A DNA stretch of 64,000 nucleotides from Gigantopelta aegis. Lineage: Eukaryota > Mollusca > Gastropoda > Neomphalida > Peltospiridae. The translations under genes and the position numbers were made by a program. Shown piece by piece: positions 33,887 through 63,990 of the stretch. The notes under the pieces are model-generated. The model saw nothing but the letters and a program-made list of their open reading frames with translations, made no database searches and was not told the origin of the DNA. The stretch covers positions 22,601,929-22,665,928 of the forward strand of contig NC_054706.1 of NCBI RefSeq assembly GCF_016097555.1, read 5' to 3'. Every line of letters starts with the position of its first letter. Position 1 is the stretch's first letter.

Positions 33887-33926
33887 AAGCTTTCATTCGT
33901 GAGGGTTAGTGACCCTGAAAAGAGCC
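33887..33926 (-). terminator. Histone-type 3' end: stem-loop plus downstream element
   Basis: On the minus strand GGCTCTTTTCAGGGTC (33926-33911) folds as a 6-bp stem with a four-base TTTC loop, with two G-U pairs. It is followed by ACTAA and then CTCACGAATGAAAGCTT (33903-33887). This is the form of a replication-dependent histone mRNA end (stem-loop bound by SLBP, purine-rich element bound by U7 snRNA). It begins 66 nt after the stop of the small gene at 33993-34154. The same 17-nt element occurs at 56828-56844. Confidence 0.8.
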
Positions 33927-33992
33927 GTTGTAGTTTTGCCAGTGACCTTTTCCGAAGTCTTCCTGCCTGGCCTAGAGATGTTCTTTAATTTC

Positions 33993-34154
33993 CTATCTGT
34001 ATGTCATAAGGGCATATAATGGAGGCCGTTTATGAGGGAAGGGCCCTTCACCCCAGCACTCCTCCATCACTTCGTTTGGCAACGTTTCCGGCATTTCCTT
34101 CTTTGGGCTGGCAGGACCTGGTGTTGCTTGCTTCAGGAAAGGCACTGGCGGCAT
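33993..34154 (-). CDS. Unknown 53-residue protein, member of the shared-promoter set
   Basis: The ATG at 34154 opens MPPVPFLKQATPGPASPKKE followed by MPETLPNEVMEECWGEGPFP and HKRPPLYALMTYR, then TAG. I do not recognise the family. It is proline-rich, close to neutral and has no signal peptide or membrane segment. Its flanks make it interesting: a TATA box about 134 nt upstream with the same T-rich/CGTTCGCGC block found before the two sperm basic protein genes, and a histone-type stem-loop 66 nt after the stop. Two short upstream frames (ATG at 34238 and 34191) would lie in the leader if transcription starts near 34262. No intron is needed. Inference: a small gene expressed with the sperm chromatin proteins. 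Confidence 0.6.
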   Translation of the reverse strand: MPPVPFLKQATPGPASPKKEMPETLPNEVMEECWGEGPFPHKRPPLYALMTYR

Positions 34155-34262
34155 AATGTTGATCCTATTTATTCGTTGTCTTCCACAACATATCACCGAA
34201 CGACAAAACTACAAAATACTTCTAACTTGAGAACTCATATTGTTTGATCAAACAATCAGAAA

Positions 34263-34315
34263 TGACGTCATTTTTCAGGCGCTCTCATTTTATAGGAGAT
34301 GCGCGAACGTGAAAA
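34263..34315 (-). promoter_or_regulatory. Promoter of the 53-aa gene: T-rich/CGTTCGCGC block, TATA, CRE
   Basis: Reading the minus strand: TTTTCACGTTCGCGC (34315-34301), a 6-nt spacer, TATAAAA (34294-34288), then TGACGTCA (34270-34263). The block and its spacing to TATA match those upstream of 57331 and 63292. Confidence 0.75.
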
Positions 34316-34566
34316 AAAACACCCACGTGTTTGTTAACCGTTACGTTGTAAAATCATGGCTGTTGTGTTTGTTTGTAATCTTATTTTATCTATAAATCTT
34401 TTTTAATTTTAATCTTATGTACAAGTTTTTCCTGCTTCCAGTAATGGTTGTCATCTATTATTAAATTTTAAAGCTATATATTTATTAAATAATATATTTA
34501 TATTTTTAAACTTATGTTTTGTCTATATGTTGTTGTATGTGTGTGAAAGTGCTCAGCTTGGTGTCT

Positions 34567-34597
<31 letters not shown>

Positions 34598-36015
34598 GGG
34601 GCTTACCTGGCAGATATCCCCTCCTGCTCCCGTATACTTGCCTTTCTATTAATATCAGTGTTTTTAATTTTGGCTTTATGGTTTTTTAAAACTTAATTGA
34701 TTTACAAGCATGCTCTTTTTAAAAATGTTTTTATCCTGTTTTTAAAAATTATTTTAAAACCCCCAAACAAACTATTAATTGAACAGGGCAGGTGTCTGGT
34801 CTATGCCCCTAGTAGTAGCCTGATTAAATTACCCGGTTTGCTGCTCTAGATTTTATATATTAAAGGTAGGGTCAACTCCAACAAAAGCCTTATGTGTTGG
34901 AAAGATGCATACCCGGACCACCAACACATACTGACACTTCAGCAAATGAAAAACGCGTAATTTTAGAGTTAATTAAAAAACCATGATTATTCCTGCTAAC
35001 TGGGGGCAGCCATTTTGTTTCGTTTTTGTGACGTCCGGTACGATAGCTTGGGGCGAAGTGACGTCACCTCCTGACCATCTCCTGTATGTACAGTGTAAAC
35101 AAAAGCAGTAATTTTCGACAAGGCGCTTCTCTTTGATCAACCTGACTTGTAAAACAGCATAAATGACGTAATAATATAATAAACTATTTAACTAAATATA
35201 TTTCAAGTTGCATTAACGGAACAAAATGGGGTTATAGTATTTTTCTCTGTTTAATAATCCAAAGGAAAAATGTACACTATTACGCCTATTGATATGCTAC
35301 GTTGGGGCAAAAACTACAACCCACGATACCCAAGTGATAATTTTCTTTTCTTTGGGACTACGTAATTGGTCAGTTCTCTGGTTGTAGATGGAAAAGTCTA
35401 CTTAATCAATAGTTTTACAGAACTATTTACAGTAATAAACCATGTCCATTACAATTTTAGGGGCGACGGGTAATATTCCACAATACCGGTATGTACTTTT
35501 GTGTCTAGACAGCGTCAATTAATTGGCTCGTCTGGTTACCAATCAAATACACACCTGCCAATCAGAAATCACAGGTAGAAGCAACTAACAGCATAGACCA
35601 ATTAACTAAGAAAACACTCCATGTATCATTTCAGTACGTAGGTTAATGCATGGGAAAAACATTGTTAATTGTTTCGACTTGTTGTGTAGCCACTTTGACA
35701 ATGGTATTTTATTTTGTATTGAAAAATAATATATATAGTGCTGGATATACTTACTGTAGGCTTACTGGGATGTGTATTATTACAGAACATTGCAATATAT
35801 GACTATTTATCATCCCGCAAAAACCAGGTAGATTGTGTTTCTCTAGTTCTAAGGCTCATTCCTGACGTGAAGCGTTAAGTATTACGTAACCACCAGCTCG
35901 CCAGAGGGGGTACTCACTGAGATGGTACAAAATGGCTGCGCCCGTTATATATAATAGTCGAGGGGGGGGGGGGGGGGGGGGGGATAGGATGTCGGAAGTT
36001 AAAGTTACATTCTCT
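34316..36015. other. Non-coding, with homopolymer runs
   Basis: A (TG)n run passes into about 22 G at 34580-34601, and another G run of about 22 lies at 35960-35981. The stretch 34860-35940 is less AT-rich and has TGACGTCA near 35058-35067, but no exon or transposon end could be supported. Confidence 0.5.
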
Positions 36016-36140
36016 GGGCCCGAGCTTATAAAACTTAAAGTCTAGACTTTAATAAAGTCCAGACTTTAACGTAATGTTATTTGAATGTTAAAGTCTGGAC
36101 TTTATTAAAGTCTAGACTTTAAGGTTTATAAGCACGGGCC
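36016..36140. mobile_element. Palindromic MITE, copy 2
   Basis: A nearly perfect palindrome, GGGCCCGAGCTTATAAAACT at the left and AAGGTTTATAAGCACGGGCC at the right. The arms carry AAAGTCTAGACTTTAATAAA. It is shorter and cleaner than copy 1 at 15364. Confidence 0.92.
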
Positions 36141-36142
36141 AG

Positions 36143-36480
36143 GTTATATACAAGCTCAAATGCACTTTTAAAAAGTCGTGTGTGTTCGCTATGAACGGAT
36201 ATCGTCAAATGTATACGCTTGATTCGTCGCCTGTGTCGCCATAGCTCGGCAAAGCATAAACGACAGCCTGTTGTCAGTTTCAGTTAACACGTGCGTTTGC
36301 CGATTTCAAATTGTAGGGTTCATCTAAAAAAATTAAAAGAGATCTTGCGCTGTACGAAGAACGTTCAGTTGAGGATACGGTACTAGAGTCTTTAGTTAAA
36401 ACCGGTTTGATCTTGATATGACAACGTATTATCGACAGTCGTACCTTCCTATTTCAGAACTGATATTTTACAAATACATA
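36143..36480. repeat. Repeat module M, copy 2
   Basis: It matches 18010-18280: AAGTCGTGTGTGTTCGCTAT, TTAACACGTGCGTTTGCCGA and ACAACGTATTATCGACAGTC. It adds CTGTACGAAGAACGTTCAGT, as in the 58 kb copy. Confidence 0.8.
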
Positions 36481-36643
36481 GGCTATGTAATTTAAGCTTT
36501 ATTACTAAAAAAATCCATCAACTATGGCGTTCGTGAATTATTTTTCACGAATCCACACACCCTCGTTCATTCTCCATTAGTTTATACAGACGTGAAATGC
36601 AAACAATTTGAAATTACTTCCAACTCATATGCTTTCACGCAAC

Positions 36644-37322
36644 TTAAAGCATCTCTACAAAATTGCAAATGATAGGGCATAATTCCGGAATATTGTTGCG
36701 TGTAAGAAATAAGAATTTTTCATTATTAGTCAAAAAAGAAAACTGTGATTCTTGTTTTATTATTTTATGATGTAAATCATTTCTAAAAGCATTATATATA
36801 GGGCACTTGATAATGAAATGATATTCGTCTTCAACTTCTAGGGGACAGTTGGGACAATATCTCTCATTCGCAGGGACAGGTGGTTTCTTGTGTCTTCCCT
36901 TTTCAATCATAAGTGAATGTGAACTCAAACGAAGCCTACTAAAAGTTTTTCTGCTTTCATAGTCTTTGGTATGTAATAAATAGGACTCAACTGAACTCGA
37001 AATTTGTTTGAATGACATATGTGCGCATTTTATTACCATATTTGTTATAATTTTTGTTTGATGTTAGCTGTGTCGTAATATACTGCAAAAAGTACTGCTC
37101 GCAGTTAATTACGATTTCACCTAAAGTGCATGCAGTCGGTAATTCTGGAGTTGAAGATAGATGCGTAGGAATTCCAATTAGGTTTGCAGCATTAATAAGT
37201 TTAGCTACCCACGACGGTTTGTTGTTCTGGGCTGACTTTGAGCTATCAATAAACGCAGCAGTTAAAGTTAATATTAATATTATAACATCATGTACAAATT
37301 TGAAATACAAGCTCAAATGCAC
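36644..37322 (-). pseudogene. LINE 3' end, copy B
   Basis: Nearly identical to 17330-17960. The upstream frame (37322 to about 36990) contains PSWVAKLINAANLIGIPTHL and the downstream one (37039-36644) the CPNCPLEVEDEYHFIIKC zinc motif. The same frameshift joins them, so both copies descend from an already broken parent or were made by segmental duplication. Confidence 0.78.
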
Positions 37323-38000
37323 TTTTTAAAAAGTCGTGAGTGTTCGCTATGAACGGATATCGTCAAACGTATACGCTTGATTCGTCGCCCGTGCCGCCAT
37401 AGCTGGCTGGGCAAAGCACAAACGACAGCCTAATTTTAATTAGATTGTCTATAACCCCAACCCAGCTGAAATCCCTGCACACGCGCCTTGGAAACCTGCT
37501 ACATTTTATTTTTTTTAGCAAGGGATTGTTTATATGTACCACCACACAGACAGGATATCACATACCATGGTCTTTTTGTATACCCGCTGATGGGGATCGA
37601 TCCTAGACTGACCGCGCATTTCCAAAAAACACGTTTTTAGGTCTAAGTCAAAATTTCAAGGTAAATCCCCCACTCACCGACCCATGGAAAGGCGTTGTAC
37701 CATACCTCTATGGATATAAATATGTTTTGGAGATATGAGACGACCCCTCAATCAGTTTGTTCAAAAATTGCGAAATCTCACGTGATCTCTTGTTGGGGAA
37801 TTCTATACTTGTGATAAGCCAATGAAAACCGAGATCGGTACGAGCCCGTCAAAAGTGTTCAACTTTCAAAATGATGGCGTTGTTTTTGACCTGGATAAGC
37901 CAGCATAGTGAAACAAATGCGGAGTGCGGCGTCATATATGCACCAAACGTAATTGGATTTTCTGTTATATATGCTTAAATAATAAAAATATTCCAGGGAA
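37307..38000. repeat. Module M (short) followed by composite repeat R, copy 2
   Basis: 37307-37435 is module M from AAGCTCAAATGCACTTTTTA to GACAGCCTAA. Then comes R: AAATCCCTGCACACGCGCCT, a reverse SINE B piece at 37515-37620, and GGAAAGGCGTTGTACCATAC through TAATAAAAATATTCCAGGGA. Confidence 0.75.
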
Positions 38001-38757
38001 TGTAGTTTTAACAGTGTGTTGTTTGAAGTCTGGATATGTAATACATATTTAAAGTCATTAATAATTATATCATACGTCAGTGGCAATCTTCCTAATTCTG
38101 CTAATGCTACAGCATTACTGGTATATTTATTGACCCCCAAAATCCATTTACAGAATTTTATGTGTACTTTTTCTACATCAAGAGTAAAATAATTTGTGTT
38201 ACAAACTTATGGTCTCCAAATTTCACTCACATTTAATCGTATTGAATAGTTTAATGCAAATATTGATAGGTGGATTGTGTTTGAGAACTGATTTTAATAA
38301 ATGATTTAAAGATTTATGTCCTTTGTTTTTTAAACACTTTACACCAATGTTGAATTTACCATGGCTGTCTATAGTGATACCCAAATATGTGTAGTCATTA
38401 GAGATATGAATTTTGGAGGACCCTATGCTAAAGTTAAGTTGATCTGTGTTCATTTTACGCTTATTGAAGACAATAATGTTAGATTTTTCAACATTAATGG
38501 GAAGATCATTAATTATAGCATATTGGTTGGCAGCATTCAGCGTAGTTTGGAGCCCTGACGCTGAAGGGGACAGAAGCACCAAATCATCTGCGAATAAGAG
38601 ATGGTTGATTTTCAAATTATTCACATCAATAGGTTCACATCGTGCATCAAAATACTTAACAATATCATCTATAAAGATATTCAAAAGCAAAGGGGATAAA
38701 TTACAACCCTGCCGTACACCACGACTAGGATTGAACATGGGTGATGTAGGCCTGCTG
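38001..38757 (-). pseudogene. LINE reverse transcriptase fragment, copy B
   Basis: The minus-strand frame has SNPSRG-like start, GVRQGCNLSPLLLNIFIDDI, the catalytic FADDLVLLSPSASGLQTTLN, INVEKSNIIVFNKRK and YTYLGITIDSHGKFN, covering fingers-palm parts of a LINE reverse transcriptase. A separate frame at 38140-37859 continues with GVNKYTSNAVALAELGRLPL. The N-terminal end is replaced by composite repeat R. The order of pieces is as in copy A at 17-20.8 kb. Confidence 0.85.
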
Positions 38758-39440
38758 AAATCCCTGCACACGCGCCTTGGAAACCCGCTAAATGTTTTTT
38801 TTTTTTTAGCAAGGGATCGTTTATATGTACCATCCCACAGACAGGATATCACATACCATCTTTTATATACCCGCCGATGGGGATCGATCCCAGACTGACC
38901 GTGCATTTAAAAACCCCACCTTTTTAGGTCTAAATAATGAATAAAAATAACATATTATCTTGAAATTTTTTACGTAAATCGAACACAGTACCCTCTTCCT
39001 CTACCCCTAGAGCGTTACGTATTTACTAGCACCCCCTTACATGTAACGCGTATGCCAACAGCTGGCCACTGTCAAAATTTCAAGGTAAATCCCCCACTCA
39101 CCGACCCATGGAAAGGCGTTGTACCATACCTCTATGAATATAAGCATGTTTTGGAGATATGAGACGACCCCTCAATCAAGACAGTTGAATTTGTTCAAAA
39201 ATTGCGAAATCTCACGTGATCTCTTGTTGGGGAATTCTATACTTGTGATAAGCCAATGAAAACCGAGATCGGTACGAGCCCGTCAAAAGTGTCCCACTTT
39301 CAAAATACTGGCTTTGTTTTTGACCTGGATAAGCCAGTGTAGTGAAACCAATACGGAGTGCGGCGTCATATATGCACCAAACGTAATTGGATTTTCTGTT
39401 CTATATGCTTAAATAATAAAAATATTCCGGATACTGCCGC
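38758..39440. repeat. Composite repeat R, copy 3
   Basis: It runs from AAATCCCTGCACACGCGCCT through a reverse SINE B piece (38810-38905), TTTTTAGGTCTAAATAATGA, GGAAAGGCGTTGTACCATAC and GAGACGACCCCTCAATCAAG to AATATTCCGGATACTGCCGC then TTTAAG. Confidence 0.82.
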
Positions 39441-39575
39441 TTTAAGTGTTTTTTGGGGGACCATAGGACGCAGGCAGATTTGGCCTCAGGGATAAGAGAT
39501 GGATCTGACCTCCCCTCCCCCTCCCCCGGTCACATCACCATTCGGGATCTGATTGGCATTTCTCCATAACCTTTA

Positions 39576-39964
39576 CCGGCCTCGGTGGCGTCGTGGTAGG
39601 CCATCGGTCTACAGGCTGGTAGGTACTGGGTTCGTATCCCAGTCGAGGCATGGGATTTTTAATCCAGATACCGACTCCAAACCCTGAGTGAGTGCTCCGC
39701 AAGGCTCAATGGGTAGGTGTAAACCACTTGCACCGACCAGTGATCCATAACTGGTTCAACAAAGGCCATGGTTTGTGCTATCCTGCCTGTGGGAAGCGCA
39801 AATAAAAGATCCCTTGCTGCTAATCGGAAGAGTAGCCCATGTAGTGGCGACAGCAGGTTTCCTCTCAAAATCTGTGTGGTCCATAACCATATGTCTGACG
39901 CCATATAACCGTAAATAAAATGTGTTGAGTGCGTCGTTAAATAAAACATTTCTTTCTTTCTTTC
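39576..39964 (+). mobile_element. SINE family A, full length
   Basis: CCGGCCTCGGTGGCGTCGTG head, TTTC tail, and a 15-bp duplication TTTCTCCATAACCTT (39559-39573 and 39965-39979). It is the cleanest family A copy in the window. Confidence 0.93.
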
Positions 39965-39979
39965 TTTCTCCATAACCTT

Positions 39980-41557: not shown

Positions 41558-42650
41558 TTAATCAGTCGACGAACTCATTTCTTCATCACTATCTTCGTTA
41601 AGGGGGACTATCACAGGGGGTATTTTTTTTCTTATAAAACTATTTTGTTTTCTAAAATCTTCTTCGATCTTTATTACATGTTTAACTTTAACTGCGTCAG
41701 AGAAGTGTGTAGGTGTGACAGAGTTCAATGCATGTGCAAGTTCTCTCCGCACCGTGGTCATTTTATCATCATTATGACGAGCTATGTGCCCTTTGACTTG
41801 ACTCCAGATCAGTTCTATCGGATTGAGTTCAGAATGTCTTGGCGGCAGTCTTAGACACAAGTGCCCATGGCGTTCAGCAATATCATCAGTAACAAATTGC
41901 TTTGCACATTTGTTACTTTTCACAAGTTCATAAAGAACTGGCTTTGTCATGTTACTCTCAAAAGGTATATTTTTGTTTCGTAGCCACGACTGAATTTCTT
42001 CCTTTTTAGCGTTTAGTGCAGGACATCGTGTAATCTCAGTTAATTTGTTGTGGTAGCTTGCGTTATCCATGACGATAACAGAAGGTTCTGGTAGAGAAGG
42101 CATAAGTTGTTCTTCAAACCATTTGATGAAATTTTCATGATTCATCTCACCATGATAGTCTCCGTCTGTTTTTTAGCCTCAAAGATCAATTCACAGCCAT
42201 CTATCAATCCATATTTATCACAGCCAACATGACAAATAATAAGTCTTTTTCCCTTCCCAGTCACCGAACAGAGTTTAGGACCTCGATCAGCAGCGTCTGA
42301 TTTCGGCAGGTGATTGGCGGTACTTGTGCCCGGGTGGATATCTGTCCAGTGGTGGGATGTTGTGTGGTTGACATTCACCCAGGTCTCATCTTGATACACT
42401 ATTAAATACCCCTGTTCTCGTAAACTGGATATTTCATGGAGATAGGACAGTCTCCTGTCTGACATATTGGCGTCCTCAAAAATCACCTTTCCGGTTGTAG
42501 ACATATGTTGGTATTTAAAATCGAGGTCATGGAGTGTTCTTCGTAAAGTTGATATGGATATGTTGATTCCACATTCCTCCCTTAAAGCCACGTTAATCTT
42601 ATGTAATGTAGGTAATTCGCCCTCTCAATAAAATCTGTATACTCGTCGTA
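41558..42650 (-). pseudogene. Tc1/mariner-superfamily transposase of the DD82E (Sailor) type, broken
   Basis: Frame one (42591-42142) holds the first catalytic Asp in YQDETWVNVNHT. Frame two (42145-41558) holds the second in SVIVMDNASYHN and the Glu in ELNPIELIWSQVKGH. By my count 83 residues separate the second Asp and the Glu, far from the 34-39 of Tc1 or mariner and close to the DD82E spacing described for Sailor elements, which I recall from molluscs among others. The two frames are joined by one base: shifting before GDYHGEMNHENF restores the usual reading across the junction. A TGA also interrupts the N-terminal part near 42620 (VYRFY*EGELPTLHKINVAL). The copy is therefore inactive. Terminal repeats were not found. 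Confidence 0.82.
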
Positions 42651-44396: not shown

Positions 44397-46470
44397 CTAC
44401 TCTAGGAATAGGGAAACATTGTCTTGTATCAGCGTAGTCAACTTTTCTCGCTGGGGGTTCAAGTCTGCTAGAATCTGGCTGTTGGTTAATTTGATCTCTG
44501 CAGTCTTGACGTCATCACAGGAAATTGAGTGACTCTCAATTTGGACCGGTAACTCTGAAACTATCGGCAGTCTGTCAAAATAACCTTTTAGCAAATTGAT
44601 GTGACAATACCTACTTTTCCTAACCCTACCAGGAGTGTTTATCACATACCCTGTCTCATTAACCCGTTTATGATCAACATAGGGCCCGAAATACCTGTTC
44701 TGTAATGAACCCCGTTTAATGGGAAGGTACAGCAGCACTTTATCCCCTGGTTTAAATTCCCGACTCCTAGCCTTCCTATCAAACACTGATTTTATTTTGC
44801 TCTGAGCATGGCTCAGTTGCTTCCTATCCTTTCTATCTCTAACTCTCTTATTCATTAATACTCCCTTGTCCACAGTTAACAAGGTAGTGCGAGCTGCCAA
44901 CAAATTTGGATCAGCCCCCTGCTCTAGGATTAACTCTTGTCTATTACAAGGTAAATCCCCTCTATCAAACACAACTGGTTCAATTCCCCTCTGCGGGAGA
45001 TCAACAGGTTCCACCACATTTAATTCCTCAGTTGACTTATCTACCATTTTACTGATAACCTCATCCACTCCAATTTCATGACTCACACACGTATCAGACA
45101 AATCACAAATATCCTCTGGGTCTCGTGTTACCCTTCTGGCCATAGCCCTAGTCATTACACACGCAGGATATCTAATCTCATCAACCTCACTCTCTCCTAC
45201 TAGTAAAGGGCTGTCTTTAATTAACAATTGGTCACATTTCGGCTGACAACACTGACTAGTCAAATCATTACCCAACAAAACTCCTATGTTTTCAACAGGC
45301 AAATCCTTCACAACACCCATAATGACTGGTCCCGTCACAAACTTCGAACACAAGAAAACGTTATGTAACCGGACAACCATTTTTTCTCCAGTAACCGAGG
45401 TTAATGCCAAACTACGTCCTGTATCTGAATTCTTAATACCAGCTAAACACTCCGACGTGATCAGCGACTGACTACAACCGGTATCTCGATAGATTGATAT
45501 TGCCTTAGGACTCAATTCTTGTTTCACATCACAAACCATACCAGTGGACACATACGGGTTTACTTTCTCTGCCATGGGACTAACCATTAACTCTCTCGCT
45601 AACGGAGCTGACCTCACTAAACCGACCACTTGCGCATTATCGCGTTTCCTTTTAAAACAGTCCCCGACAAGATGGTTATCCTTTTTACAGTAACTGCAAT
45701 GTGGACGAAAAGTTCGTGCATTGGCTGATAATGCAGGTTTATCCTTACTTTGCCCACCAGGTGCATTCCTTGCCTGACTAGCTGACCAACTAGATGACTC
45801 TCCCCGATAGTTACTTTCCCGGGAAAAACCTGGCTGAAATTTCTTATCACCCTGTTGTAAAGAGCTACCCTGTACTGCCTGAGCTTTGTGTATTAACACG
45901 TAGTCATCTGCCACTATGCCTGCCTCCTCTATCTTTTTGACATCACGATCCTCTAAATGAATACGTAAGCTAACTGGTAATCCATTTTTAATGTCCTGTA
46001 AGATCAACAACTCCCGTAACTCGGTATATGACTCTATCTGATGAGACACCACCCGTTTATCAAACATCCCTGCCTTCTTAGCCACAAACTCACTATAAGA
46101 CTGACCCTGCGTTTTTCTCAACTCGCTATACCGTAAACGATAATCCTCAGGTCGTAATTCATACGCCCTCAACACTGCCGCCTTAACTAGGTCGTACTGA
46201 CTTGCTCGCTCATCACTCATTGAATTATAAGCTACACTAGCCTTCCACTTAAACTTAGACACGGCTAACAATGTCCACTTAGACTGCGGCCAATTTAGCT
46301 GCTTAGCGGCCCGTTCAAAAAGTTGAAAGAACATATCTACCTCCTGGTCATCAAATACAGGCACTGATCTATAAGCCTCCGACATGTTAAACCCATTTCC
46401 TACTTCTCGTCTGACTTCTTCAGTATTCAACTTTAACTCATGTTCCACCCTTAATTTTGCTAACTGGAAT
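44397..46470 (-). CDS. Gag-protease joined in frame to integrase C-terminus
   Basis: The open frame runs at least from 46448 to the TAG at 44397 (about 683 codons) and has no need of an ATG, as it continues gag. It contains a SCAN/capsid-like region (EVDMFFQLFERAAKQLNWPQ onward), a CX2CX4HX4C zinc knuckle (CSYCKKDNHLVGDC), an aspartic protease motif (DTGCSQSLI), then about 200 residues later the integrase GPY/F module (FKPGDKVLLYLP ... NRYFGPYVDHKRVNETGYVI ... YCHINLLKGYF), and ends LTTLIQDNVSLFLE, which resembles the leader before RT. Protease to integrase end is normally interrupted by the integrase zinc finger and DDE core; these are deleted here, yet the frame stays open across the junction (near GADPNLLAARTTLLTVDKGV). 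It lies between LTRs and ends 30 nt before the 3' LTR. Confidence 0.85.
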
Positions 46471-46479
46471 TCTCTATCT

Positions 46480-46628
46480 CTGTCTCTATCTTCTCTATCC
46501 CTCTCTTCTCTTTCTCTCTATCCCTCTCTTCTTTCTCTCTATCCCTCTCTTCCCTTTATCTCTCTCTCTCTATCCCTCTCTTCCCTTTCTCTCTCTATAT
46601 CTTCTTTCTCTCTATCCCTCTCTTCTCT

Positions 46629-46704
<76 letters not shown>

Positions 46705-46720
46705 CTCTATCTCTCTCTCT
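46480..46720. repeat. CT/GA microsatellite inside gag
   Basis: Long (CT)n with CTCTAT and TTCC variants. On the coding strand it encodes alternating Arg-Glu in every frame. Its length sets the frame between the two gag parts, which are now out of register by my arithmetic. Confidence 0.9.
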
Positions 46721-46999
46721 ACCTAATGCACGTTCTTCTCTTTCGTACTCAAGCTTTTTAAAAGCTAATTGTTGTTCCACACTTAACTCATTTATCTCTA
46801 TCTCTGGAACAATCTCACTGTCTTCCATAACAGGACTATCACCAAAAACCTGGATAATAATTGTTCTTATATCTCCTAAGGTTTTAGCTGATGTTAAATC
46901 AATTTCTCGCTCACCCGCGATTTCAACTAATTCGGCCTTACGTGCTCGCTTAATCTCCACTACACTGAGCGTAGGCCTATCCAGCAAATTCTTATCCAT
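46700..46999 (-). CDS. Gag N-terminal part
   Basis: The ATG at 46999 opens MDKNLLDRPTLSVVEIKRAR followed by KAELVEIAGEREIDLTSAKT and later SVEQQLAFKKLEYEREERAL, entering an Arg-Glu repeat coded by the GA microsatellite. A helical, SAP-like start followed by a charged coiled region is common in Gag of this group. It is continuous in sense with the frame ending at 44397 but shifted by the repeat, so the intact Gag would need a slip or a different allele. Confidence 0.75.
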
Positions 47000-47131
47000 G
47001 TTTAGATATGACACTTATTATTAATTAATTTTCTAGTGAACAACGTTGCTACTTCTAGTTATTTGTAAAAATAATTTATAAAGCCCCCATTGACAAACAA
47101 TACTTTTTTAAAGTATGCATGTCCCGTTTCA

Positions 47132-49195: not shown

Positions 49196-51004
49196 TTTCA
49201 TTATTACACTGAACTAAATTAAATAACTAATTTTTTTACTACTGCTGAAGAAAAATACCATGAGTCCAATTGTGGTTAAAACTGAATTAAATGACACTGA
49301 AGAATTATATGCAAAATGTTTGTGAACACATTGTTAGCTTTCAAGTGTAATGTCATTTTATCAAGAAAACACTAATTTTATATGTATTAAAAGTATATTC
49401 TGGGTGTCTTAAAATGTACCTAAAACATTAAATTGAAATTGTCTTAGCAATAGTTATTACTGTTACTGTACCTGTTGCAATGGTTTTGCAATTAAATGCA
49501 GACAAATGGGTGTTTTTATGGTTTGATGTGGCGTTCACTTGATTTGTAATGAACTAAATAAAAATAAATATTTCAATAAGTGCGATGGTTTACAACTTCA
49601 ACTGAATATTGTCAGTATTTTTTGTAATTCAATTTTTGTTTCTTTATTGACTTTTTGTAATTGTAATCAATATTAACTATACTCATTAAATTAAATTATT
49701 TTTATTGTAAACAAATGATGGTGTTGTTTCATTTTGTGTTGTTTTTTATTGATATTGGAATGGAATGATTGTTTAACAGGCACATTCAGAGCAAGCTGTT
49801 GTAGTGCACACATGTCCTGGGCACAGGGGCACAGGTACCGTAGTTGGTAACAGGCGGAGGGTGGTATGGTGCTATGGAATTTGGAATGTCCCGTAGAATT
49901 AAGCCAAAGAGAATGGGTGCGCATTTTGATGAAGGAATTTAGGCGCAATTTCGAACGGTCTGTTTAAATGGAAAGGTAGGCTCGTTAATTGGACCTATGT
50001 GGTGCTGACATGTCTCCCTAGGTTGCCTATAGGGGCCCTTAAAAGAGCCTGAACTGTTAAGTTCGTGGCATTACAACCCAGGGGAGACTCGAAGCAACTG
50101 TGCATGTCCGGGAGTCTTGGTGTTTCCCTTGGGTTCCGTCTCCTGTCAATCCTTTGTCCTCTTGTTATCCTTTATTGATATTGTTTTATTTATTTGTTAT
50201 TATTTAATTTTGATCATTTCATACAACTGTCTTTATTTGTCATTAACTTACAATTGCTACATATATGTATAATTCCGAGTTAGACCTATCCCCATACCAT
50301 CCCCAAAAATATGTTAAAAAACAAAAAAGTATAAACAGTGCATGCTTGTGTGACAGTAATCAAGACGGTCATAATAATGAACCACTTTCGGATTACTAAA
50401 AGCAAAACCTATTGGCTCTTCTCATTATTTCAATTAGAACGACCATCAAAATTGCGCCAAATTTCCTTCATGTAAACGCGCACCTCTTCCTCTGACATAA
50501 TCCTACGGGACTTTCAAAATTCCATAGCACCAATTACACCCCGCCTGTCACCAACATTGGACTGCTGGTGCTCCCGTGCACTTGTCAGTGCAGGCGTCCC
50601 TTCTCCAACCCTCCCCCAACTCTTTCCTGTCCTGGACAGAGGGAACCGGCCAAGGCCGGTCCCTGTGACCAGGATAGACGTGTGCATGTCTGAATGTGCA
50701 CGTAAATCTCTTTCTCGTTCTCGTTCTCGTGACAGTAATGGTTGGTAACGGTATTTTGTAAGTCCGTTTTAGTTCAGTAAAATTGTTGGGTTAACGTTTT
50801 GTATTTTGTTTGTATTAAACTTATTAAAGTTGAGTAAATCATTTATGATAATTAATTAATTGTAATACTAATTATTTCATTAAATTCCTTTTTTTTTGCA
50901 TGGACTGTCATACCCCCGGGCGAGCAGTGGCTCTGAAAATGAGATTGGCGATAGACCTAAACACTTGCTCGTCTGTGGGACCTAGGCGGTCCGAATTCAT
51001 TTAC
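49196..51004. repeat. Region with an inverted repeat pair, no gene seen
   Basis: GGTGCTATGGAATTTGGAAT near 49868 and its reverse complement near 50518-50537 belong to arms of about 100-150 bp (49840-49970 and 50440-50560). Between them a histone-like stem-loop sequence occurs at about 50033-50048, minus strand. 50560-50750 is GC-richer, with GGCCAAGGCCGG and (TCTCGT)n. The short frame there looks non-coding. Confidence 0.6.
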
Positions 51005-56827: not shown

Positions 56828-56868
56828 AAGCTTTCATTCGTGAGATGTAGGTGGCCCTTAAAAGGGCC
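56828..56868 (-). terminator. Histone-type 3' end: stem-loop plus downstream element
   Basis: On the minus strand GGCCCTTTTAAGGGCC (56868-56853) forms a perfect 6-bp stem with a four-base TTTA loop, followed by ACCTACA and then CTCACGAATGAAAGCTT (56844-56828). Stem, loop, ACC flank and purine-rich element all agree with replication-dependent histone ends. It starts 61 nt after the stop of the basic protein gene. Confidence 0.88.
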
Positions 56869-56929: not shown

Positions 56930-57331
56930 TTACTCAACCTTTTCTTTTGTGGGAGTAGGCTCATTTCCTTCAGTGACTTCTTTGGAGTTGGGATTTTCTT
57001 CTTTTCTTCTGTTTCTTTTGGAAGCTTTCGGCTTTGCTGCTGGCTTTTGTTTTTTTCCACCTTTTCCTTTGCCTTTTCCGCCTTTACTTTTTTTGGAGCT
57101 AGCTCCTCGCTTTCGTTTCTTTGAACGAGAATTAGACTTTTTGCTTTGAGACCTCTTTCGCTTACTGCCCCTAGAACGACCTCGGCTCCTGGATCCGCCT
57201 TTTATACCACCTCTGTTACTCCGCTTGGCTTCTATCGCATTCGGAGACCTAGTTCTTGATCGAGTTCGTGATTTGGACACAGATCGAGATGGGGATCGGG
57301 AAGAAACTGATCGTGATCGCGATGATTTCAT
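56930..57331 (-). CDS. Protamine-like sperm basic protein without winged helix (133 aa)
   Basis: The first ATG is at 57331. The N-terminal 30 residues are Ser-Arg repeats (MKSSRSRSVSSRSPSRSVSK), the middle is GGSRSRGRSRGSKRKRSQSK with more KR/SK repeats, followed by a Gly-Lys run (KKSKGGKGKGKGGKKQK), and the last 25 residues are acidic (EENPNSKEVTEGNEPTPTKE). There is no globular domain and no Cys. Composition is that of a sperm nuclear basic protein that condenses DNA, and the SR start and KR/KG tail mirror the PL-I gene at 63292 with its winged helix removed. It is intronless, with a TATA box and a histone-type 3' end. An SR-type splicing protein is unlikely because no RRM is present. Sperm expression is inferred. 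Confidence 0.78.
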   Translation of the reverse strand: MKSSRSRSVSSRSPSRSVSKSRTRSRTRSPNAIEAKRSNRGGIKGGSRSRGRSRGSKRKRSQSKKSNSRSKKRKRGASSKKSKGGKGKGKGGKKQKPAAKPKASKRNRRKEENPNSKEVTEGNEPTPTKEKVE

Positions 57332-57365
57332 TTTGATATTTTCAGTTTCCAATAGTTAAAAAGAA

Positions 57366-57429
57366 TGACGTAATACAATGCGTCGGGTTTTTTTTTTAAT
57401 TTATAGCAGTCGTGCGGACGTAAAAGAAG
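57366..57429 (-). promoter_or_regulatory. Promoter: TTCTTTTACGTCCGCAC block, TATA, CRE-like
   Basis: On the minus strand CTTCTTTTACGTCCGCAC (57429-57412), a 6-nt spacer, TATAAAT (57405-57399), then TTACGTCA (57373-57366). The first block is nearly identical to the one before the PL-I gene (63221-63239). Confidence 0.8.
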
Positions 57430-58070: not shown

Positions 58071-58329
58071 GAATATGAAACAGTGATCATTATAAAAAAA
58101 AATGTAAATGTCATTTGATGAGGATTAATGCGATTAGGTCTACGAAAACATCAGTGACAGGATATCAGAAGTAATTTGACACTGGGGCGGCGTAGGGGTG
58201 GATACGTGAGAGGGTGTCCCCTTTTTGCATGGGCGTACGGACTCCCATTTTATAAGGGGGAGGGGTGGGGGCTGATATTTGGCCAAACTAAACAAAAATG
58301 CACGAATCTGGATAACGACATTTATTAGT

Positions 58330-58850
58330 TACAGTCTCTTGTTACCATAATATAACATCATGTACAAATATGAAATACAAGCTCAAATGCACTTTTAAAA
58401 AACTTGTGTGTGTTCGCTATCAACGGAGATCGTCAAAAGTATACCTCAATTCGTCGCCTGTGCCGCCATTGCTCGGCAAAGCACAAGCGACAGCCTGTTG
58501 TCAGTTTCATTTAACACGTGCGTTTGCGGATTTGAAATTGTAGGGGTCATCTCAAAAAAATGAAATGAGAAATCATGCGCTGTACGAAGAACGTTCGGTT
58601 GAGGATGGGTACTATTCTTTCGATAAAACCGGTTTGATCTTGACAACGTATTATCGACAGTCGTACCTTCCTATTTCAGAATTAATATTTTATAAAGTGT
58701 TAGTAGAACTTTCAAAGTTTAGTTTGTATAACAAATTGAGCATGTATATTTTAAAAATAAAATATACTAAAGCAGACATTGGACGTTTTCACTTCTTAAT
58801 TTTACGAGTGTTATAATCAACAAATTCAAATAAATATTCTTTCGTACGGA
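58330..58850. repeat. Repeat module M, copy 5 (longest)
   Basis: CAGTCTCTTGTTACCATAAT start, then AAGCTCAAATGCACTTTTAA, TCAACGGAGATCGTCAAAAG, CTGTACGAAGAACGTTCGGT and the TTTCGTACGG end. It contains a short frame (MRNHALYEERSVEDGYYSFD and on) with no recognised domain. Confidence 0.8.
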
Positions 58851-60050
58851 AAGGGTAAATTAGTTGGGGTTTTTTTGTTTTTAACGACATCAATGTTGCA
58901 GCATATTGATTTATTAATCATCGGCTATTGGATGTCAAACATTTGGTAATTTGACAAAATCTTAGAGAGGAAACGGGTATATGTGAAGGGGGAGGGTATA
59001 TTGGGGGGGGGGGGGGGGGGGGGTCGAAACACTTACCTGCTCAAGCTAAAAAAAATTGAAATATATTTTCTGGGGGAGCATGACACCATATAAACTTCGC
59101 TCAAACCCGCTCATTCCCAGTCTGGAGCTCGACGCAGTAAAACGTGTTTGTTTCGCTTGTGCACACTGCACGTGCTTTCGTGGCTCGACTTCGGGAACCT
59201 TCCCTTCGTTGTTTTTGTCAGTGAAGTGAAGTTTTCTACTGGGATGTATGCGGCCATTGGAACTGATTGAACGCTGGAACGCTTCTCGTGTCGACAGTCT
59301 GCACCACCAGGTTGGATTCTTTTTTAGCGAGATTCCTTGCCTCCACGTTATTTCTCCGTCTGACTATGTTGACTTGTTTTTTTCGTGACTCGTATGACGG
59401 CCATTCTGCAGAACGCCACGGTTGTTCGCGTTTAGTCTCTACATGTACGAGCCTGTCCTAGCAGCACTGGAAGATTGACCGCCTCTCTCTAAGAAGAAAT
59501 AGGAAGCGGGGTCGGTCCCTGCTACTCTTTTCTAGACTTTACTTTGTTTTATTGTGATACCATCTCGTATCCTCCGGAGTCGGGCCCGTCCGCACCACTA
59601 TATCAACCCATGACGACTGGACTATACCCTAGTCTGATTCTCTCTCTCTCGTTCAGACATAAACCCGAATGTTTTCAAATTATTTTTCAAATCACTGGCA
59701 TGATTTTGCAAGTAAGGTTTTGATTGGTCGAATGAAAGGTCAACTGGACATGAGCTCCAATGGGCTACTGTTAGATCCACCGATCTTATCTAATTTCTTT
59801 TTGACCACCCGATCTAATCTAGCGACCAAATTTAATGAGTAGAATTTTCTTTATTAATTATATTAATTAGAGATGCACATCAAAATTTTAAAGGCCCACT
59901 ATTTAATTTTTGGATGTAAATTTCAAAAGTGTCCGCTTAGTTTTTTTTATGTCCCGGGACAACCCCTGGCTATCCAGAGACAGGCCCCGGGACGGATATG
60001 CTCGAAACTCTAGTGGTATATGAGCATGTAAAAATTATTCGCACTCGCAC
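58851..60050. other. Mixed stretch, no gene seen
   Basis: 58865-58990 is a reverse SINE B tail piece. A G run of about 18 lies near 58999-59022. 59100-59640 is GC-richer than its surroundings and not recognised; short frames there lack support. Confidence 0.5.
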
Positions 60051-60760
60051 TCAACCCCGCCAAAATCCCTGCACACGCCCCTTGGAAACCCGCTACATTT
60101 GGGTTTTTTTTAGCAAGAGATCGTTTTTCCCACAGACATACCACATACCAGTCATGGCGCACTGGCTGGAACGAACCCGCCGATGGGGATCGATCCTAGA
60201 CCGACCGCGCAATTACCCCCCCCCCCCCCCCCCCCCCCCCCCCCGCCACCTTTTTAGGTCTAAGTAATGAATAGAAATAACATATAGTCTTGATAAATGA
60301 TACGTAAATCGAATACACCAACCTCTTCCTCTCCTCCTAGAGCGTTACATAATTATTGACATCCCCTTACATGTAACGCGTATGCCAACCGATGGCCACT
60401 GTTAAACTTTCAAGGGAAATCCCCCACCGATCCCTGGAAAGATGTTATACCATACCTCTATGGATATAAATATGTTTTGGAGATATAAGACGACTCCTCA
60501 ATCAAGACAGGTAAATTTGTTCAAAATCACGTGAGAAGCTCAGCGCCTGTGCAAATCACGTAAAGTCCCAGTTCTGCTGGCGTCCCGCTAAATTAAGAAA
60601 AACAATGCTGGCCATTGCGTTAGTAGTTGACCTAGATAATGTAGATAAGCGAGCATTGCCAAACTATAGTGATGTGGTGGACCTTATATGTACCAAACAG
60701 AACTGGATCATCCATTCTAAATGCTTAAATAATAAAAAATATTCCAGGGACTGCAGCTTT
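60051..60760. repeat. Composite repeat R, copy 5
   Basis: AAATCCCTGCACACGCCCCT, a reverse SINE B piece with GGGGATCGATCC, a C run at 60217-60244, TTTTTAGGTCTAAGTAATGA, GTTGACCTAGATAATGTAGA and the ATTCCAGGGACTGCAGCTTT end. Confidence 0.82.
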
Positions 60761-63180
60761 AATAGAATGATGGGACGGACTATAGTTAATGACGTCGGAT
60801 ATCGAAGGTAAGAATAAAAATTTCGCGAGGCTATGCCGAGTGGAATTTCTCATTGAGCCTGAACAGGATAAAGCACATATCCAATGTCATTAACTAGTTA
60901 TTATCTTTATCCTTCAGACCATAAAAAGTAATTGGAAATGCTATTATTTCTGTTATTTCAGCCACATTGAACGATGACCTAGAGGTCAAATTAGCGACTT
61001 TGTAATGTAAGCTATGCGTGTGACTTTATCCGTCCTCGTATTCTGTCAATAGAAACGGTGGTCGCATGATAGATCGATTTTAGCGTCTTAAAGATGGTCT
61101 TTGTGTCTATTTAAGCTTACTCAAGGGCGACCTTGATATATTTCCGTTTCTGTAGTTAAGAACTGACTGAAATTATTTGTTTGGTTCATGTAAGAACCGA
61201 AGACACGATGTGCACTAGGGTCTCCACGAGTACTCGGGTTCGGGCCGAGTCTAGCAAAACTCGAGTCCGTTCACAGGACTCGAGTACCCCTACAAATGAC
61301 ATAATTATTCAGCAGGAATACAACTTACACAATAATAATATGATCATGTGCTAGTTTCTCTTCTTAATCTGGCCGTTCGTCCGTCAATATACTGAACGTA
61401 TCAACCGGTTTCTACATAACGCTACTTTACTTTATTCCTTAGTTTTATTATCATCTAGTGTAGGTGTCGGGTACTCGGGTTCGGGTCGAGTTTAACCATC
61501 GAATACTCGAGTCCAATTTTTGAACACGTGAAGGCCCTAAATTAATATGCACACTATATGACTCCACGTGGCTTAATTGTTTTCGGCTCATCGAGATATG
61601 AACGCAAAAAAAAAAAAAGGTAACCACCTCTGGACCAAACAAATTGCTGTACAGTGTATAGAAGCAAACACAATTTAATAATTAGTACCTATTTAAATAT
61701 ACATGTATTTTAAAGATGATAGGCCCCCTAATAGGTTAAATATGTCTACCTAAAGGGCAGGATTTTGATCAATTCAATTCAATTCAGTTTATCCATAAGC
61801 ACATGAACAGTATAAATGAGTTGTACCACGTATTGTGGTCTATTAATACATGAACAAGCTAAATAATAAGACAATCATAGAAATCTAAATCTGTTAAACA
61901 TAGGATTAAAATGACATTGTATAAGTCCATGAGGAATATATACATATTAAAATTAATTTTACTCAATGATAAACAGTGAAGCAAATTATATATAGAAAAT
62001 ATAACAGTGGCGTAGGAAGGTGCCAAAAGGGGAGGGGGGGGGGGGGGGCACATTTTTATATCTACACACATTTACACTATTATAAAGCAAATATAAAGCA
62101 AAATATCTGAAAAGTGGTGGGGCACATGACCCCCTTGCCCCCCCCCCCCCCCCCCGCGCTTCCTACACCAGTGATATAATAAAAATTCAGTGCTCCCCAA
62201 ACTGTTTCAGATCAGTATATATACCATGTTAATTAGCAGGTTTATTATGATGTTAAGTAGTTTATCCCGTTCATTAAACATTTCCGTGAAAAACTAACCA
62301 ACTCTATAGGAGACAGGTCAGTTCAATTGAGTGCTCGCCCGATGTGTTTGCGTCGCAGGATCGAACCACCTCTGTGAATCCTGGTCAAAGGCCGTGGTAT
62401 GTGCTTTCCTGTCTATGGAAAAGTTCATATAAAACATCCCTTGCTGTCTCAGGACAAATGTAGCGGGTTTCCTCTGATGACTACGAGTCAGAATTACCAA
62501 ATGTTTGACATCCAATAGCCGGTGATTAATTAATCAGTGTGCTCTAGTGATGTCGTTAAACAAAACAGATTAAGTTTCTACATATTTCACCAGACGTAAA
62601 CGTTTTATTTTTAAGATATTTAAGGACATGCATATATAAAGATGGTCTACGCATCTATGTTCATTAACGTAGTAAGAATACCAAAAATATATTTAGAATT
62701 AAAATAAATTTATATTTATGTACAGGGCTCATATATTATTGTTTGTTTCCGGAATAAACAGGACAAAATATTGGAATATTTATTGCGTGATATGTAGATC
62801 TGAGTTTAAAACGTTATAACTGGCTTAAATGTGCATGCGTAATGTGCTATTACGTGAAATATATTATTAACATACTATCGTATTCTCTGGAGTTTAATTT
62901 TTATGTTATTCGTGGATTTCTGGGATAGGTTGGTAATTATGAAACAATGTTAGTTTAAATTATTGCTACAAATTATATGAATATTAAGCATGCAGTTAGG
63001 CGTACATGGCTGTTCTAAAGTGCTTTATTTAACATTTTCTGAATCGGTACTGAATTTGTTGTAAAAACAAGACAACAAACCGGAGATCAAAAGATCCCAA
63101 AACTATTTTTAAATGATTTCTAAAAGTAATATCATCTTTATAAAATTTTAATTATTATAATAGTTTACAGTGAAACACAC
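60761..63180. other. Mostly AT-rich, non-coding
   Basis: At 61229-61292 and 61466-61515 a GGTACTCGGGTTCGGG/CTCGAG segment occurs twice. At 62022-62050 and 62140-62155 are G and C runs. A SINE B copy lies at 62310-62575. Nothing else is recognised. Confidence 0.5.
62310..62575 (+). mobile_element. SINE family B, diverged
   Basis: GAGACAGGTCAGTTCAATTG head, CAGGATCGAACC at the B box position, GGCCGTGGTATGTGCTTTCC body and GATTAATTAATCAGTGTGCT tail. Confidence 0.8.
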
Positions 63181-63220
63181 ATGAATTTTTAAAAAAAAAA
63201 TGACAGTAGCAGAACGTGTG

Positions 63221-63263
63221 CTTTCTTTTGCGTCCGCACTGCACTGGTATAAATATGACGTCA
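63221..63263 (+). promoter_or_regulatory. PL-I promoter: CTTTCTTTTGCGTCCGCAC block, TATA, CRE
   Basis: The block lies at 63221-63239, then an 8-nt spacer, TATAAATA (63248-63255) and immediately TGACGTCA (63256-63263). A further CACGTCAT follows at 63270-63277. The start codon is only 36 nt after TATA, so the leader is very short. Confidence 0.82.
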
Positions 63264-63291
63264 ACAATCACGTCATCCTCCAAACATAAAA

Positions 63292-63990
63292 ATGACCGGT
63301 TCAAGACACGCTAGATATCGTTCGAGATCTAGTAGTTTATCTCAGTCGCGGTCTAGGTCCAGAAATTATATATCGATGTCCCGATCTAGGAGTAGAAGCC
63401 AATCTAGCACCGAGTCGATGGAGGATACAGTTTCTTCTCGCAAAACTCGACGACATTCTTCGTCTGTGGAACAACCAACCGCCATGGTCCTGAAAGTAGT
63501 TGAAGCCATCACGCAGGACAGGGAAATGAAGGGATCATCTCTTCAGTCCATCCGCAAACAAATTGCAGCCAATTGTAAGGCTATGCCTGTCAATCTGCTG
63601 AATGGACAAATCAAGAAGGCGATTAACATGGGACTCAGCAGAGGATTTCTAGTTCGTCCAAAAGGCTCGAAGGCCAAGGGTACCGTTGGACGCTTCCGCC
63701 TTGGGAAGATCCCTGATCTGGTGGTATCTCGTCATCCTCGACATAGCAGGTCTCGCAGCCTTAGCGGAAGTCGACGTCGGAAGACAGGTGGTGACGATGA
63801 TGGCAAGAGCAAGAGCAAGGGTGGATCCCATAAGAAACGTAAACGTAGTAAGAGCAGCAAAAAAGGAAAGTCGCGAACCAAGAGCCGAGGTAACAGCATG
63901 ACCCGAACAGTCAAAAAGCAAAAAACGGAAGGAAAGAAATCTAAGTCGCGCAGACGAAAGAAAGGCAAAAAGGGGAAAGGCAAAAAGTAG
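63292..63990 (+). CDS. PL-I type protamine-like sperm histone (232 aa)
   Basis: Residues 1-40 are Arg-Ser repeats (MTGSRHARYRSRSSSLSQSR onward). Residues about 58-142 form a linker-histone H1/H5 winged-helix domain (QPTAMVLKVVEAITQDREMK, then GSSLQSIRKQIAANCKAMPV and IKKAINMGLSRGFLVRPKGS, closing TVGRFRLGKI). Residues 150-232 are a Lys/Arg/Ser-rich tail ending RRRKKGKKGKGKK. This order is that of mollusc PL-I sperm proteins, which replace histones and pack sperm DNA. A single Cys at residue 95 sits in the globular domain; I recall PL-I proteins of some molluscs having one Cys there that permits dimers. The gene is intronless, TATA-driven, and its 3' end lies just beyond the window, so whether it has a histone stem-loop cannot be seen. 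It is divergent from the basic protein gene at 56930-57331. Confidence 0.9.
   Translation: MTGSRHARYRSRSSSLSQSRSRSRNYISMSRSRSRSQSSTESMEDTVSSRKTRRHSSSVEQPTAMVLKVVEAITQDREMKGSSLQSIRKQIAANCKAMPVNLLNGQIKKAINMGLSRGFLVRPKGSKAKGTVGRFRLGKIPDLVVSRHPRHSRSRSLSGSRRRKTGGDDDGKSKSKGGSHKKRKRSKSSKKGKSRTKSRGNSMTRTVKKQKTEGKKSKSRRRKKGKKGKGKK

Follow-up and report, generated by a model that had tools for sequence, protein, structure and literature searches.

The three genes described here, from a 64-kb window (the whole stretch of DNA analysed) of contig C8 of the deep-sea vent snail Gigantopelta aegis, are likely to belong to a gene set, located mostly on C8, of which at least a large part goes back to a histone H1 gene. 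Most likely, the coding part of the ancestral H1 gene changed, whereas its promoter and histone-type RNA ending were kept. The first-pass annotation of this DNA had proposed a shared sperm-chromatin control of the three genes, an interpretation that, as a whole, is partly supported. The anatomy of the genes, their copy number and location, and the presence of the promoter block in ordinary H1 genes are observed directly; expression of the family in sperm is what we infer from the sequences, and the genome paper (PMC7895826) nowhere uses testis, gonad, ovary or sperm in its main text.

The three genes and their promoters

The 64 kb contain exactly three copies of the block RCGTYCGCRC (Table 1), against a mean of 0.13 and a largest value of 2 in 100 dinucleotide shuffles, so the three shared promoters initially claimed are real and beyond chance. 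As had been described, a pyrimidine- or T-rich tract precedes each block and TATAAA follows after 6, 6 and 8 nt in genes 1, 2 and 3, respectively; the TGACGT site reported downstream of the TATA box was found as TGACGTCA in genes 1 and 3 and as TTACGTCA in gene 2. The reading frames are open and intronless, in agreement with the initial description of short intronless genes.

Gene 3 had been assigned to the PL-I type, and its winged-helix domain indeed matches the Pfam Linker_histone family (PF00538, 1.8e-13, 51 bits, cut-off 22.4); the protein has 30% R+K overall, with the tails characteristic of PL-I, the N tail being RS-rich and the C tail K-rich. Gene 2 encodes a protein as short and strongly basic as expected of a sperm nuclear basic protein, with no winged-helix domain, no Pfam match up to E=1 and no protein homologue found; it is therefore classed as a tail-only basic protein rather than as PL-I. 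AAACAC is present at gene 2 only at -94 and -22. The gene 1 product is not strongly basic (6 R+K versus 6 E), and it matched no Pfam family up to E=1 and no homologue in a protein search. The claim that its coding sequence is unlike the others holds, since a comparison with segments of nine family loci yielded matches only at the 3' ends of three of them (43 nt at 86%, 17 nt and 17 nt). Gene 1 is the most deviant member of the set, with ACGTTCGC, a stem-loop below the Rfam gathering score and no homologue found, and its downstream element consists of the same 12 nt as that of gene 2.

Table 1. Positions, in the 64-kb window, of the reading frames, promoter elements and 3' ends of the three genes
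Gene	Feature	Position	Strand	Remarks
1	ORF, 53 aa, non-basic	33993..34154	-	no relatives found
1	block ACGTTCGCGC, preceded by TTTTTTTTC	34301..34310	-
1	TATAAA	34289..34294	-
1	TGACGTCA	34263..34270	-	40 nt from block start
1	AAACAC (H1-box-like)	34365..34370	-	60 nt ahead of block
1	histone-type 3' stem-loop GGCTCTTTTCAGGGTC	33911..33926	-	two G-U pairs; RF00032 21.8 bits, gathering score 34
1	histone downstream element-like GAATGAAAGCTT	33887..33898	-
2	ORF, 133-aa tail-only basic protein	56930..57331	-	37% R+K, without winged helix
2	block ACGTCCGCAC	57412..57421	-
2	tract CTTCTTTT	57422-57429	-	ahead of block
2	TATAAA	57400..57405	-
2	TTACGTCA (CRE-like)	57366..57373	-	48 nt from block start
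2	histone 3' stem-loop GGCCCTTTTAAGGGCC	56853..56868	-	RF00032 33.6 bits, gathering score 34
2	downstream element GAATGAAAGCTT	56828..56839	-	same letters as gene 1
3	ORF, 232-aa PL-I/PHI-type linker-histone-domain protein	63292..63990	+
3	block GCGTCCGCAC	63230..63239	+
3	tract CTTTCTTTT	63221-63229	+	ahead of block
3	TATAAA	63248..63253	+
3	TGACGTCA	63256..63263	+
3	second CRE-like site ACGTCA	63270-63275	+
3	AAACAC (H1-box-like)	63173..63178	+	57 nt ahead of block
3	stem-loop	C8:22665944 (window position 64016, just past window end)		38.1 bits, above Rfam gathering score

Histone-type 3' ends and the family across the genome

Stem-loops were scored with RF00032 in E-value mode; Rfam run on the whole window at the gathering threshold gave no match. 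Genes 2 and 3 have a stem-loop (33.6 and 38.1 bits) with GAATGA downstream. Neither the 3' stem-loops nor the common downstream element had been mentioned in the first-pass annotation. A search pattern combining stem-loop and GAATGA, independent of the promoter, identified 20 sites in the genome, 18 on C8, which is 7.1% of the assembly, and 2 on C6 (reversed control, 0). The block lay upstream of 19 of these sites, as exact RCGTCCGC at 17, and the genome-wide enrichment before TATA boxes at genes for sperm-nuclear-protein-like products, predicted from the window, holds. At the stem-loop sites of the small family, the ORF ahead is not RS/K-rich. Rfam analysis of 13 loci recovered the stem-loop in eight, above the gathering score in two (L014 and L023), and none in L050, L052, L034, L046 and L031; those of L034 and L046 were found in adjoining DNA, whereas the DNA read for L050 and L052 contained none. 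The palindrome at 50034-50049 of the window was considered as a fourth 3' end and rejected, as no GAATGA-like element follows it.

Searching the genome with PF00538 yielded 43 matches, including 15 on C8 at 37-59 bits, 12 of which carry the block, as exact RCGTCCGC in 9 and with one change in 3, a divergent linker-histone match (64 bits) on C9 and six partial matches on small contigs. The family includes winged-helix proteins, the longest with 1198 residues, small non-basic proteins, and the tail-only basic class of gene 2 and its relatives, whose members have about 100-148 aa. Two C8 proteins bear the NCBI names 'sperm-specific protein PHI-2B-like' and 'PHI-2B/PHI-3-like [Gigantopelta aegis]', presumably by similarity. 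The tail-only proteins appear to resemble PL-I tails beyond composition (9, 0, 4, 3 and 0 of 1000 shuffles reach the score), with a significance that is overstated because shuffling destroys the RS periodicity.

Among 36 family promoters, many of them recent duplicates and many retrieved with TATA and the exact block as search terms, 34 had TATA, 26 a CRE-like site at +20..+60 and 24 AAACAC at -75..-45, the rates per promoter in mononucleotide shuffles being 0.023 for the CRE-like site and 0.018 for AAACAC. At least eight of the 36 (L010, L011, L022, L024, L031, L053-L055) lie without an intact unit with a stem-loop nearby and may be pseudogenes, and for four others (L083, L085-L087) the reading covered just the 5' end. 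The CRE-like site was found in only 2 of the 8 long winged-helix promoters and in one of the two promoters classed as 'other'. No family gene was found at the T-tract matches L098, L099, L101 and L102, and the block was absent from L084, L088 and L089; the one-mismatch GCGACCGC at L089, which sits in an apparent repeat, was not counted.

The first-pass annotation had held that gene duplication alone does not explain the shared control. For the PL-I and small non-basic genes, duplication is shown by alignments of their upstream DNA, from which the block and tract had been removed: six of six pairs scored above all 1000 shuffles. The upstream DNA of these two classes is thus of common descent, although their proteins are unlike. 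For gene 1 and the tail-only genes, duplication rests on shared spacing and 3' ends, the upstream DNA being unaligned. In all 11 other pairs tested (PL-I with tail-only genes, gene 1 with three classes, PL-I with a long winged-helix gene, and the family with ordinary H1), 61-870 of 1000 shuffles reached the score; the values for gene 1 were 870, 315 and 208 against PL-I, tail-only and small genes, respectively. Descent of gene 1 from the H1-type set, which we infer from its sites and 3' end, is unproven.

The promoter block in ordinary H1 genes

The block had been taken as a sperm control element. This reading was rejected, since ordinary H1 genes on C4, C6, C7, C8 and the H1-array contig also carry it. 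RCGTCCGC (ACGTCCGC) was present in all five conventional H1 promoters chosen, from 21 strong H1 matches, without regard to the block, and a TATA-like box lay 16-17 nt from the start of ACGTCCGC in four of them. All six ordinary H1 promoters compared have the RCGTCCGC block or, in one case, ACGTCCGT; this comparison with ordinary histones covers H1 genes. What separates the family from ordinary H1 promoters is the TGACGT-like site located some 40 nt beyond the block (26/36 versus 0/6). The ORFs of the ordinary H1 genes are intronless, and the array H1 gene has a 3' stem-loop, which was absent from the DNA read at four other ordinary H1 genes. The link between the family and ordinary H1 consists of short motifs and spacing, because the upstream DNA is unaligned. 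The H1 box is AAACAC(A), located upstream of TATA, and a site with these exact letters at -75..-45 was found in two of the six ordinary H1 promoters. No passage on the H1-box letters was found in PMC6615755, and a literature search gave no paper joining all the terms.

Origin of the family and significance

The common linker-histone transcription unit would consist of AAACAC at about 60-70 nt on the upstream side, RCGTCCGC together with a pyrimidine tract, TATA 16-19 nt from the block start, and a 3' stem-loop with its downstream element. The sperm branch would have added a CRE-like TGACGT site some 40 nt beyond the block. H1-type factors may act at the H1 box and block and TFIID at TATA, a CREB/CREM/ATF-type bZIP protein at the TGACGT site could provide germ-line timing, and the mRNA would be cut by SLBP and U7 snRNP. 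The predicted products packaging sperm DNA are winged-helix PL-I proteins, tail-only basic proteins, in which the winged helix was probably lost, and perhaps small non-basic proteins, to which no role is assigned. The chances are about even that a fixed H1 expression cassette outlived its coding sequence and now drives winged-helix, winged-helix-less basic and non-basic proteins, mostly on one chromosome; the homology of upstream DNA between PL-I and small non-basic genes is the strongest evidence. If so, regulatory ends would prove common descent where proteins cannot.

That the block is a generic element of TATA promoters, present by chance or across many gene types, is very improbable. Bare promoter patterns do have a background, because reversed controls also match (15 versus 33, 10 versus 30 and 63 versus 137 matches), and none of the 15 loci matching the first promoter pattern outside C8, several of them repeat-like with common flanks, has a stem-loop. 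However, the block recurs at the sites retrieved by the independent 3' pattern (19/20) and by the winged-helix search (12/15 on C8). Separate acquisition of the same control sites by unrelated genes, gene 1 above all, would account for its unlike coding sequence, its lack of a found homologue and its unaligned upstream DNA; we nevertheless consider it unlikely, given that gene 1 has the H1 box, the block, TATA and the CRE-like site spaced as in the family, a stem-loop, and a 12-nt downstream element identical to that of gene 2, and given the common descent of the PL-I and small genes.

It is similarly improbable that these are H1-type variants of another stage, such as the early embryo or oocyte, whose 3' ends would be tied to replication. 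PMC5011920 names both the stem-loop and the downstream element as hallmarks of replication-dependent histones, and the block is common to ordinary H1, but the RS/K-rich and very long repeat tails suit sperm nuclear basic proteins, the NCBI names are those of sperm-specific PHI proteins and the CRE-like site is absent from the six H1 promoters. For gene 1 alone, a decayed, non-coding copy of the cassette with a 53-aa ORF arising by chance is a serious possibility, slightly short of an even chance: the protein search gave no relatives, the stem-loop is weak, with two G-U pairs, and the block is divergent, whereas its H1 box, TATA, CRE-like site and GAATGAAAGCTT are each intact and spaced as in the family.

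With descent from H1 as the preferred reading, the family can be set beside known systems. It resembles the PL-I/PHI sperm linker histones (such as Spisula PL-I) in combining a winged-helix domain with tails rich in R/K/S, a type represented by gene 3 and by 11 other C8 PF00538 matches with the block. It differs from them in two intronless versions of very large size (1198 and 865 aa) and in its several classes, which share a cassette and lie mostly on one contig. With replication-dependent H1 genes it shares the intronless ORF, the 3' stem-loop (array H1), the H1-box-like site (2/6) and the block, but the C8 family has the CRE-like site after TATA, and its winged helices are divergent, reduced or absent. 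Like protamines and the tail-only basic proteins of sperm, gene 2 and its relatives are short, basic and without a globular domain; PMC12216123 mentions a protamine of 106 aa from the gastropod Monodonta. Unlike protamines, the gene 2 class consists of R/S/K mixtures rather than mostly arginine, and keeps an H1-type promoter and a histone 3' end. In mammalian CREM-driven spermatid genes, a CRE-like site lies near TATA in sperm chromatin genes; they are not known to have the block and the histone 3' end, and a CREM-like factor is putative here. Among the literature matches listed (for several searches, at least the top results), no title or abstract opening was concerned with the promoters that drive PL genes in molluscs.

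Sperm nuclear basic proteins change fast, and their descent from histone H1 has so far rested on thin protein similarity. Here, winged-helix and non-basic products are linked by homology of the DNA that flanks the coding sequence on both sides, and tail-only products and ordinary H1 are tied to the family by motif, spacing and 3' end; descent is therefore testable through orthologous ends in relatives such as Chrysomallon. For germ-line control, we hypothesize that an old H1 core promoter was joined by a new element, the TGACGT site some 40 nt beyond the block. If the proposed origin is true, the H1-to-PL-to-protamine route would be readable directly in one genome, and non-histone sperm genes could arise inside an H1 cassette.

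Promoters and 3' ends of the window genes

The first-pass annotation described a block, RCGTYCGCRC, 6, 6 and 8 nt from TATAAA in three short genes, with a T-rich stretch upstream and a CRE-like site downstream. These spacings were confirmed, a pyrimidine tract and the CRE-like site were seen at all three promoters, and the three ORFs agree with their earlier description; the shared architecture is more extensive than that annotation described. Against an expectation of 0.13, the 64-kb window contains the block three times, a count that no shuffle out of 100 reached. Pfam searches found the linker-histone domain in gene 3 and no family match for genes 1 and 2, and the gene 3 protein search returned two proteins named by NCBI 'sperm-specific protein PHI-2B-like' and 'PHI-2B/PHI-3-like [Gigantopelta aegis]'. 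PL-I proteins are R/K-rich sperm relatives of linker histones (PMC4584325, PMC5550673), and a protamine of 106 aa is known from a gastropod (PMC12216123). The main text of the genome paper (1.15 Gb, 15 pseudo-chromosomes; PMC7895826) does not contain the words testis, gonad, ovary or sperm.

Absent from the earlier annotation was the 3' end of both gene 1 and gene 2, a histone-type stem-loop followed by the identical 12-mer GAATGAAAGCTT. Replication-dependent histones are marked by a stem-loop and a downstream element (PMC5011920). Only the gene 3 stem-loop exceeded the Rfam gathering score of 34 bits (gene 2, 33.6; gene 1, only 21.8). A promoter-blind, genome-wide search for the stem-loop plus GAATGA gave 20 sites, 18 on the window's contig (C8) and 2 on C6, versus none with the reversed control. 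The block lay upstream of 19 of them, as exact RCGTCCGC in 17, ACGTCCGT at L076 and GCGTCGGC at L080, and was not found at the remaining site, L078. Among these 19, L063 and L075 lack an intact TATA, and L024, with about 1.3 kb from TATA to stem-loop, appears interrupted. The ORFs between block and stem-loop encode winged-helix proteins, tail-only RS/K proteins (two subfamilies) and a small family.

The small non-basic family (RFF...NRVAPTPGLSSEP) uses the same cassette and is spread over 20.0-53.5 Mb of C8; in L024, L053 and L055 more than 1.1 kb separates TATA from stem-loop, suggesting insertion.

Coordinates of the window, the genes discussed and other features
Feature	Location	Remark
Window	C8:22601929-22665928	within 1.149 Gb assembly (genome search)
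Gene 1	window 33993-34154 (-)	53-aa non-basic ORF
Gene 2	window 56930-57331 (-)	133-aa tail-only basic protein
Gene 3	window 63292-63990 (+)	232-aa PL-I/PHI-type protein
Gene 3 stem-loop	starts at window position 64016	beyond window end; Rfam 38.1 bits
1198-aa intronless linker-histone-domain gene	C8:20306400-20312661 (L096, L034)	adjoining stretches joined, single open frame
865-aa intronless linker-histone-domain gene	C8:26945500-26950649 (L097, L046)	adjoining stretches joined, single open frame
Further long open frame (1199)	C8:20884792	PF00538 search
Gene P0002	C8:23135068	NCBI model omits the first 28 residues of the TATA-following ORF, beginning at a Met within it
Conventional H1 (L100)	C6:82097300-82098700	189 aa
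Reverse-transcriptase-like element, two copies	window 17333-17960, 20446-20784, 36644-37322, 38223-38906	LFADDLVL motif and Cys-containing end (by eye)
DDE-type (IS630/Tc1-like) transposase-like ORFs	window 41558-42591 (-)	by eye
Retroelement gag/protease-like ORF	window 44397-47014	683 aa, CCHC-type motif (by eye)
Repetitive ORFs (LLHIIIYLTFRSCSVMFQS)	window ~6400-8050	indicate tandem repeat array

The block in sperm-type and ordinary linker-histone genes

The block with TATAAA at 4-9 nt matched 33 sites genome-wide, versus 15 with the reversed pattern. Thirty were read as loci, 15 on C8 and 15 elsewhere, the other three matches lying on small contigs; a stem-loop lay within 1.5 kb at 10 of the C8 loci and at none of the 15 others. 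A second promoter pattern gave 30 rows (control 10), representing 23 distinct sites, 20 of them on C8. The tract and block without TATA, YTTYYDTTRCGTCCG, yielded 137 matches versus 63 for the control. By-eye counts of the 100 listed placed at least 26 matches with C at position 4 on C8 and at least 6 elsewhere; 25 of these 26 were at family loci, and one of the six was an ordinary H1 gene.

PF00538, the linker-histone domain, matched 43 times: 21 conventional H1 genes at 90-106 bits, many in tandem arrays (~3.8 kb) on small contigs; one match on C9 at 64 bits; 15 at 37-59 bits, all on C8; and six partial matches on small contigs (32-58 bits), taken for fragments. The block was found in 12 of the 15 on C8, exactly in nine (window gene 3, L015, L034, L046, L050, L052, L075, L086 and L087) and with one change in L080, L083 and L085; it was not found at L084, L088 or L089. 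The 1198- and 865-aa proteins have a winged helix and long SR/K repeat tails (unit ~27 residues, by eye), and their genes carry the histone stem-loop.

Five conventional promoters (L090-L094), picked blind to the block from the 21 strong matches, served as control. All five contain ACGTCCGC. In four, a TATAAA or ATAAATA-like box lies 16-17 nt away, measured from where this sequence begins; the array H1 promoter has no such box near it. The sixth H1 promoter, L100, was located via the block; it carries ACGTCCGT behind the T-tract CTTCTTTT and may link the ordinary H1 promoters to those of the sperm type. The block is therefore a mark of linker-histone genes in general. Vertebrates conserve the H1 box, together with an upstream element, in their replication-dependent H1 genes (PMC6027317).

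We compared these six with 36 family promoters, of which C8 carries 33, C6 two and C3 one. The 36 are non-independent, many being recent duplicates, and for many of them TATA and block had served as search terms. The feature separating the family from ordinary H1 promoters is the CRE-like site, found at +20 to +60 in 26/36 versus 0/6 (mononucleotide shuffles, 0.023 per promoter). The H1 box reads AAACACA; AAACAC lies at -75 to -45 in 24/36 family and 2/6 H1 promoters, and near-variants such as AAGCACA were seen by eye at a similar position in others. The proposal of a sperm-chromatin regulon is half borne out: sperm-type chromatin genes do have a regulatory architecture in common, but the block at its core belongs to H1 genes.

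Duplication or separate origin

The explanation that we consider probable is that the cassette derives from a histone H1 gene and was kept by the sperm-histone, tail-only and small genes. Alternatively, unrelated genes may separately have gained the same control sites. We aligned the 158 nt 5' of the tract, with 1000 dinucleotide-block shuffles as background. All six PL-I/small-family pairs exceeded every shuffle. The remaining 11 pairs were all non-significant, the score being reached per 1000 shuffles by 123 and 627 for PL-I versus tail-only, 92 for tail-only versus small, 248 for PL-I versus the long winged-helix gene, 531, 61, 322 and 88 for family versus ordinary H1, and 315, 870 and 208 for gene 1 versus tail-only, PL-I and small genes, respectively. 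Judged by these alignments, common promoter descent is therefore shown for the PL-I and small genes, despite their unlike proteins, and for the other classes may be inferred from spacing and 3' ends. As to the earlier statement that shared control is not explained by duplication alone, the sharing between PL-I and small genes is shown to be descent by duplication; gene 1, whose upstream DNA aligns with none of the three classes compared, is the least certain family member. Because of the non-aligning pairs, we regard independent recruitment as slightly less improbable than before, though still unlikely, and derivation from an H1 gene as marginally less probable.

Tail-only proteins scored above composition shuffles against PL-I tails, in a test blind to RS periodicity. 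PL-I and tail-only genes are neighbours near 22.66, 23.14 and 29.64 Mb on C8, as would be expected of co-duplicated neighbours. dN was lower than dS in 11/11 pairs tested, gene 1, without a partner, falling outside the test; one small-family pair has three changes only and two pairs have dS > 1, which makes it likely, short of proof, that the small family is translated. In Drosophila, sperm basic protein genes have been expanded or lost in relation to sex-chromosome conflict (PMC9917458).

Proposed mode of expression

Anatomy is all of the mechanism that has been shown. From it, factors of the H1 box and of the block would act on the promoter, TATA would direct initiation, and the 3' end would be cleaved by SLBP/U7, while a bZIP protein at the CRE-like site may confer germ-line timing on the family.
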